Part shown: positions 13,743-14,062 of the stretch, in pieces
Numbering within the stretch: the stretch's first letter is position 1
Layout: every line of letters starts with the position of its first letter
IMG/VR virus record: IMGVR_UViG_3300025669_000894
Span: 1-22,332 of that record
Source: a virus
Length of the DNA stretch: 22,332 nucleotides
Reading direction: 5' to 3' (one strand)
Program-made: the position numbers and the translations under genes
Notes under the pieces: model-generated
Databases searched by the model: none
Told to the model about the DNA's origin: nothing
What the model saw: the letters and a program-made list of their open reading frames with translations, nothing else

Positions 13743-13823
13743 GCCAGTCAAACCGTATTAACGCATGGTTTCCTCCAGTAGACACGCGGTATTATAAATG
13801 ACCGTGTACGTGCGCGACATACT

Positions 13824-13854
13824 ATTATAAGGGAATAGCAACCCCAAAAGTAAA
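13824..13854 (-). promoter_or_regulatory. Leftward promoter in left arm
   Basis: On the minus strand TATAAT lies at 13829-13824, and TTTACT at 13854-13849 is a four-of-six -35 at the rather long spacing of 19. The same block is repeated in the right arm. It would drive the ParB-like gene and the whole leftward block. The poor -35 spacing suggests that an activator or a phage sigma-like factor is needed. A second TATAAT at 13796-13791 may assist. Confidence 0.5.
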
Positions 13855-13929
13855 TAAAAATAAAAATAATTTGCTGACGAAAATACCGCCCTACTCTCCC
13901 CTATATTTTTATACTTATATATAATAATA

Positions 13930-13952
13930 TATAGGTAACATACATACCTATA
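13930..13952. other. 8-bp hairpin in the core of the long inverted repeat
   Basis: TATAGGTA (13930-13937) and TACCTATA (13945-13952) pair perfectly around a 7-base loop, near the middle of the core, and lie directly before the TCAG tandem repeats. It may be a single-strand initiation structure or part of a protein site. Confidence 0.6.
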
Positions 13953-13984
13953 GTCAGTCAGTCAGTGGAATTATTTTATTTTCA

Positions 13985-14015
13985 TTTACTTTTAGGGTTG
14001 CTATCCCCTTATAAT
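13985..14015 (+). promoter_or_regulatory. Rightward promoter in right arm
   Basis: TTTACT (13985-13990), 19 bases, then TATAAT (14010-14015) mirror the leftward promoter of the left arm. Transcription would start near 14022 and run into the primase gene with a leader of about 85 bases that contains the inverted repeat at 14063-14108. Confidence 0.5.
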
Positions 14016-14062
14016 AGTATATCATTATATAGGCTGGCAAAAGGTATTTTGGTCAGTCAGTT

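Follow-up and report, generated by a model that had tools for sequence, protein, structure and literature searches.

The inverted repeat between a ParB-like gene and a primase-helicase gene in the window, a linear 22.3-kb virus record analysed here over its whole length, most probably represents a divergent pair of phage-specific promoters that, together with a third copy at the small terminase gene, are all read by one trans-acting factor, most likely a phage sigma factor. The probability of this reading is put at about 0.8. Each arm would serve as one outward promoter, the left for the ParB/polymerase operon and the right for the primase operon, and the arms would be alike because a single trans-acting factor must read all copies.

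The repeat consists of a 53-nt left arm (13819-13871) and a 52-nt right arm (13969-14020), which flank a 97-nt core and match except for three mismatches and one gap, confirming the near-perfect inverted repeat of 52-53 bp described in an earlier note on this DNA. Its ungapped score is 38, whereas 20 dinucleotide shuffles of the surrounding 450-nt region reached at most 11, and every other inverted repeat in the window is weaker. The repeat folds as a DNA strand with -42.7 kcal/mol (z = -10.6); the core folded alone is unremarkable (z = -1.0). The A+T-rich core (13872-13968) contains GTCAGTCAGTCAG, a small hairpin, and GTCA repeats, and neither its sequence nor its length is conserved. Four-nucleotide tandem repeats (GTCA, GTTA, CTAT, CTAC) occur in or beside the repeat in the window and in the AT-rich relatives L110, L111, and L174. 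All three arm mismatches in the window are transitions. An RNA function, as judged from a one-strand G-U bias of the arm mismatches, was considered and set aside, the relatives appearing mixed by eye.

The genes on both sides agree with the flanks named previously, as domain and PHROG matches identified a ParB-like protein (12621-13670, minus strand; ParB_N and HTH_ParB) as the first gene of the left operon and a primase-helicase (14107-16785, plus strand; PHROG primase families and DUF5906) as the first gene of the right operon. Long leftward genes on the left encode this ParB-like protein, an SNF2-type helicase, a second ParB-like protein, and a family-A DNA polymerase, and the short rightward operon encodes the primase-helicase, a MazG-like (pyrophosphohydrolase-type) protein, a DNA methyltransferase, and an exonuclease.

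Read outward, each arm has the sequence of a bipartite, promoter-like element. Repeat detection and motif scanning placed the left element on the minus strand, reading leftward to the ParB-like gene, with a -35-like TTTACT (13849-13854) and a -10-like TATAAT (13824-13829) separated by a 19-nt spacer. The right element, on the plus strand, reads rightward to the primase-helicase gene and carries the same boxes at 13985-13990 and 14010-14015, also with a 19-nt spacer. The two arms share the block TTTACTTTT-N-GGGTTGCTAT-N-CCCT, and both the TATAAT box and the unusual upstream block that had been claimed for each arm are present. The arm motif has no further occurrence in the window, and a generic sigma-70 scan of positions 11000-19500 gave no excess of matches. 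The extra-long arm match in the window, which includes the spacer, may reflect recent local homogenisation.

This arrangement bears on the suggestion in the earlier note that the repeat may be an invertible DNA switch, in which the two arms would recombine and so flip the core. A short core enclosed by inverted arms of 52-53 bp invites such a reading, but the TATAAT boxes lie within the arms and outside the inverting segment, so that a flip of the core would change nothing. Three other IMG/VR assemblies of this phage have an identical sequence with the core oriented alike, giving a single orientation in four assemblies; certain relatives have spacers of just 3-6 bp, too short for a switch of this kind, and the partner copy at the terminase is single. 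Recombinase genes are sporadic (resolvase in 4/15 contigs, integrase in 2/15), and none was detected in the 28-kb contig of this phage (G001, a fragment) or in the closest relative (G029), with the search controls detected. The invertible promoters of Bacteroides and the phage G/C segments resemble the present case in having inverted repeats near promoters. Those systems have a recombinase and place a promoter or the end of a gene inside the segment that inverts; here the promoter is part of the arms, without a linked recombinase. Such a switch is thus highly improbable at this locus.

Relatives were collected as 35 IMG/VR loci through the primase, 74 through a ParB profile, and 11 MAG contigs through a primase profile, all of the records being uncultivated and incomplete. 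Distinct ParB/primase junctions numbered 74, drawn from uncultivated phages and from MAG contigs, and at 62 of them an inverted repeat scores above all 20 of the junction's own shuffles. In 10 of the 16 other contigs scanned, the junction repeat outranks all other inverted repeats, and in one more (G022) it is tied; it is not the strongest in G004, G005, G006, G007 (at the usual position), and G028. Position and mirror symmetry are conserved across the lineage, and sequence and spacing vary: the arms of one phage are nearly identical, the arm sequence changes from phage to phage, and the spacers between arms range from 3 to 269 bp. Conservation in relatives, proposed previously as a check, therefore held for the architecture but not for the arm sequence or for the sequence and length of the core. 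In the closest relative (L109, ParB 81% identical), the long symmetry has been lost, yet CCTTATAATAG and the TTATTTA block stay in both arms.

The range of spacers indicates that the arm is the unit and the hairpin is not. The hairpin or cruciform as the functional unit, an idea that had rested on GC-rich relatives with spacers of about 40 nt, was dropped on account of spacers of up to 269 nt and of single distant copies. A miniature transposon or another insertion with terminal inverted repeats would account for the near-perfect terminal repeats and the A+T-rich core, but dozens of diverged phages have a repeat at this position, each with a different sequence, and in a search of 2.9 million viral contigs the exact arm motif was limited to this phage. 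No copies with duplicated target sites were found elsewhere, and an origin by insertion has a negligible probability.

The promoter-like layout also recurs in the relatives. Mirror-image -10-like TATAAT boxes occur in the window, L109, and L114, and in AT-rich relatives plain -35/-10-like pairs were read by eye as TTGCAA-N16-CATAAT in the L007 arms, TTGTGY-N17-TAGAAT in the L009 arms (TAGAAT also in L008), and TTCACA-N18-TATAAG in the L110 arms (TATAAG also in L154). An unsupervised 36-nt motif from 70 GC-rich arms has an A-rich -35 box and a conserved -10 block containing TAGGT, separated by a spacer of low information content. The "central hairpin" of the GC-rich relatives is a back-to-back pair of such A-rich -35 boxes, and this accounts for its variable loop length. 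The GC-rich layout (GGAAAA, 16 nt, GTC) resembles that of ECF-type promoters; these arms have no textbook sigma-70 -10/-35 pair, and the exact hexamers, which are inferred, are therefore uncertain. Mirror-image promoters for two replication-linked operons, as suggested in the earlier note, are thus supported as promoter-like elements at the level of sequence, in a layout that recurs across a large lineage. As a separate candidate, GAATCATG was considered as a start-codon context and rejected, since long ORFs begin there in few cases. A palindrome, GCGTTTATACGC (with variants), lies downstream of the right arm and ahead of the primase start in nearly all GC-rich relatives and could be an operator or a leader hairpin.

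A third copy of the arm was found far from the repeat. When whole contigs were scanned with the arm of the same phage, the match ranking third lay upstream of the small terminase gene in 9 of the 11 contigs that have this gene (G005, G015, G021, G022, G024, G027, G029, G030, and G031), the gene being named by its position before the large terminase, with no profile match. In these nine contigs, the third copies scored 21.9-42.6, compared with nulls of at most 13.9 from reversed contigs. They sit 14-66 nt upstream of the small terminase, on the correct strand and pointing at the gene, often with a ribosome-binding site directly after them, and are 30-44 kb from the inverted repeat. G004 has a weak third copy at the expected place (12.4 against a null of 12.0), and in G033, which has the small terminase, the scan with its own arm gave no third copy. 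G009, G013, G018, G020, and G026 have neither a third copy nor a small-terminase match and, lacking the latter, are not informative. G007 has an extra copy immediately ahead of a short ORF, which is followed by a ParB-like gene. A promoter family scattered through the genome was rejected because a strict first scan gave hardly any matches to the arm motif outside the repeat; the third copy emerged once the arm of each phage served as its own query. Neither a third copy nor a terminase was detected in this phage's two longer fragments, and the phage most likely carries its third copy ahead of the small terminase, outside the fragment.

The third copies follow the arms of their own phage. In the closest relative (G029), the third copy retains CCTTATAATAG, as do both arms, and the TTATTTA block is present in all three copies. 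The A-rich box recurs at the same distance in the third copies of five GC-rich contigs. Among five GC-rich phages, the identity between arm and third copy is 0.95 within a phage and 0.65 between phages, and the true pairing of arms with third copies is the single best of 120. Since the copies are 30-44 kb apart and a hairpin cannot keep them alike, a trans-acting factor is the simplest reason for their similarity. The comparison of inverted arms with a single third copy also provides a method for telling promoter symmetry from hairpins.

The arms might instead be paired operators for a phage repressor or activator, such as the adjacent ParB-like protein, beside promoters for the host sigma factor. 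Any sequence-specific regulator would make distant copies co-vary, the TATAAT boxes of the window, L109, and L114 match the host-type consensus, and the next gene on the left encodes a ParB with an HTH domain. However, the conserved positions make up a -35/-10-like pair with a freer spacer, and the arm element is directional and lies a short distance upstream of three unrelated genes. Operators of this kind are possible but unlikely.

The earlier note had also proposed the repeat as a candidate replication origin; in such an origin, the arms would extrude as a hairpin or cruciform. ParB and primase genes on the flanks, the A+T-rich core, the well-folding strand, and a local skew minimum at 13948 are all in line with this proposal. 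The skew, however, tracks the coding strand and becomes negative again along minus-strand genes to the right of the repeat, and in relatives of 47-94 kb the repeat is not the skew extreme and no turn occurs there. No strand-composition turn at the repeat was found beyond coding-strand effects, and GC skew was discarded as evidence for an origin. No DnaA-box cluster was found; the one DnaA-box-like match in the window lies outside the repeat and is no more than expected by chance. A local repeat scan revealed no iteron-like family. The 269-bp spacers, the single, non-inverted arm copies elsewhere, the core of the GC-rich relatives, which is neither conserved nor A+T-rich, and the loss of most of the symmetry in the closest relative also speak against an origin at the repeat, which is regarded as improbable; an origin close by, or a phage initiator that uses other sites, is conceivable. 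Cumulative GC skew peaks about 15 kb to the left of the repeat in GC-rich relatives (G015, G013, G018, G020, G022, G024, G026, and G027), near the sigma-like gene, and this peak may mark a terminus or an origin.

For the preferred reading, in which one factor reads a promoter pair and its terminase copy, the most likely reader is a protein of the sigma-70 family whose gene belongs to the left operon (611-1237, minus strand); the protein was recognised from a family profile, its predicted fold, and its homologues. In single-sequence searches, this ORF gave weak matches under the Pfam cut-offs. A profile built from it and eleven homologues matched a sigma factor best in the PDB (1l0o chain C, 4.8e-17), and sigma factors were the best 59 of the 60 PDB matches listed. 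The homologue in L193 clears the Pfam Sigma70_r2 cut-off, and the predicted structure of the ORF (pLDDT 79) has sigma factors as its top fold matches, with modest E-values and TM-scores. A phage gene with sigma-70 regions 2 and 4 is thus present, and a low-copy motif upstream of several operons was found in the relatives, beyond this fragment. Sigma homologues were found in those relatives whose contigs are long enough for the gene (weak in G030, G031, G033, and G034), share their strand with the left operon, and lie beside a conserved small protein in the best-characterised contigs. Arm distance tracks sigma distance beyond primase distance in nine phages (partial r 0.50, permutation p 0.013; r is 0.42 when the most divergent phage is left out), a correlation that comes from a small sample, is confounded with phylogeny, and is only suggestive of co-divergence. 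The T7-like RNA polymerase profile PF00940 had no match in 16 contigs, nor in the control genomes. Under its own promoter, the sigma factor would exert positive feedback on its own expression.

Phages phiEco32 and 7-11 encode a sigma factor and have phage-specific, low-copy promoters heading functional and structural gene clusters, and their sigma factor is partly made from its own promoters (PMC4331800). The present lineage resembles them in its low-copy, phage-specific promoter-like elements and in a phage sigma factor, here a candidate predicted from its sequence. The phiEco32 and 7-11 motifs are short (TAATGTATA; TGTGATGTTATA) and more numerous, whereas here there are usually three copies, two mirroring each other at the replication junction and the third at the small terminase, in a different, uncultivated lineage. 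A phage sigma factor with low-copy promoters is thus known, and the mirror pair and terminase copy that co-diverge across a lineage are new; no published description of this combination was found in the open-licence literature. The likeness to lambda-like divergent promoters lies in back-to-back promoters between two operons. The divergent promoters of lambda differ in sequence and serve the lysis/lysogeny switch, whereas the two promoters here are near-identical.

No close cultured relative was present in the phage collection searched, and 7 of the 11 MAG contigs are labelled Planctomycetota, Pirellulales, or Planctomycetaceae, binning being weak evidence of the host. There is perhaps an even chance that, in a large uncultivated lineage, about three private promoter copies run the replication and packaging operons under the phage's own autoregulated and co-diverged sigma factor, with part of the lineage probably infecting Planctomycetota. 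The promoter reading would explain a conspicuous repeat without a new origin or switch and predicts transcription start sites for phages that lack a close cultured relative in that collection. If the wider reading of the lineage is true, dozens of relatives would be a natural panel of distinct sigma-promoter pairs, and, with the sigma factor as the reader, these many natural pairs would be of use for studying the evolution of promoter specificity and as orthogonal transcription parts.

Several further features were observed in the window and its relatives. The two ParB-like proteins (8005-8847 and 12621-13670) differ from each other, and no ParA was evident among the proteins scanned. GAATCAT occurs 16 times in the window against 3.9 expected, clusters in the leaders of the ParB, primase, and sigma-like genes (1276-1450, 12388-12404, 13684-13736, and 14063-14108), and is possibly an operator or an RNA-hairpin element. 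In the primase leader (14063-14108), a perfect 13-nt inverted repeat ends at the start codon, with the ribosome-binding site beside the stem, and may control translation. A tRNA-Leu (taa) gene lies inside the left operon (12405-12492). In G007, a likely intein interrupts the SNF2-type helicase (17238-20300), and the primase ORF of L010, from the same phage, is enlarged to 1253 aa. The ORF at 41-595 has a long, near-periodic alanine-rich segment, and the glycosyltransferase at 20391-22214 contains the same domain twice in tandem and adjoins a long ORF without a PHROG match.
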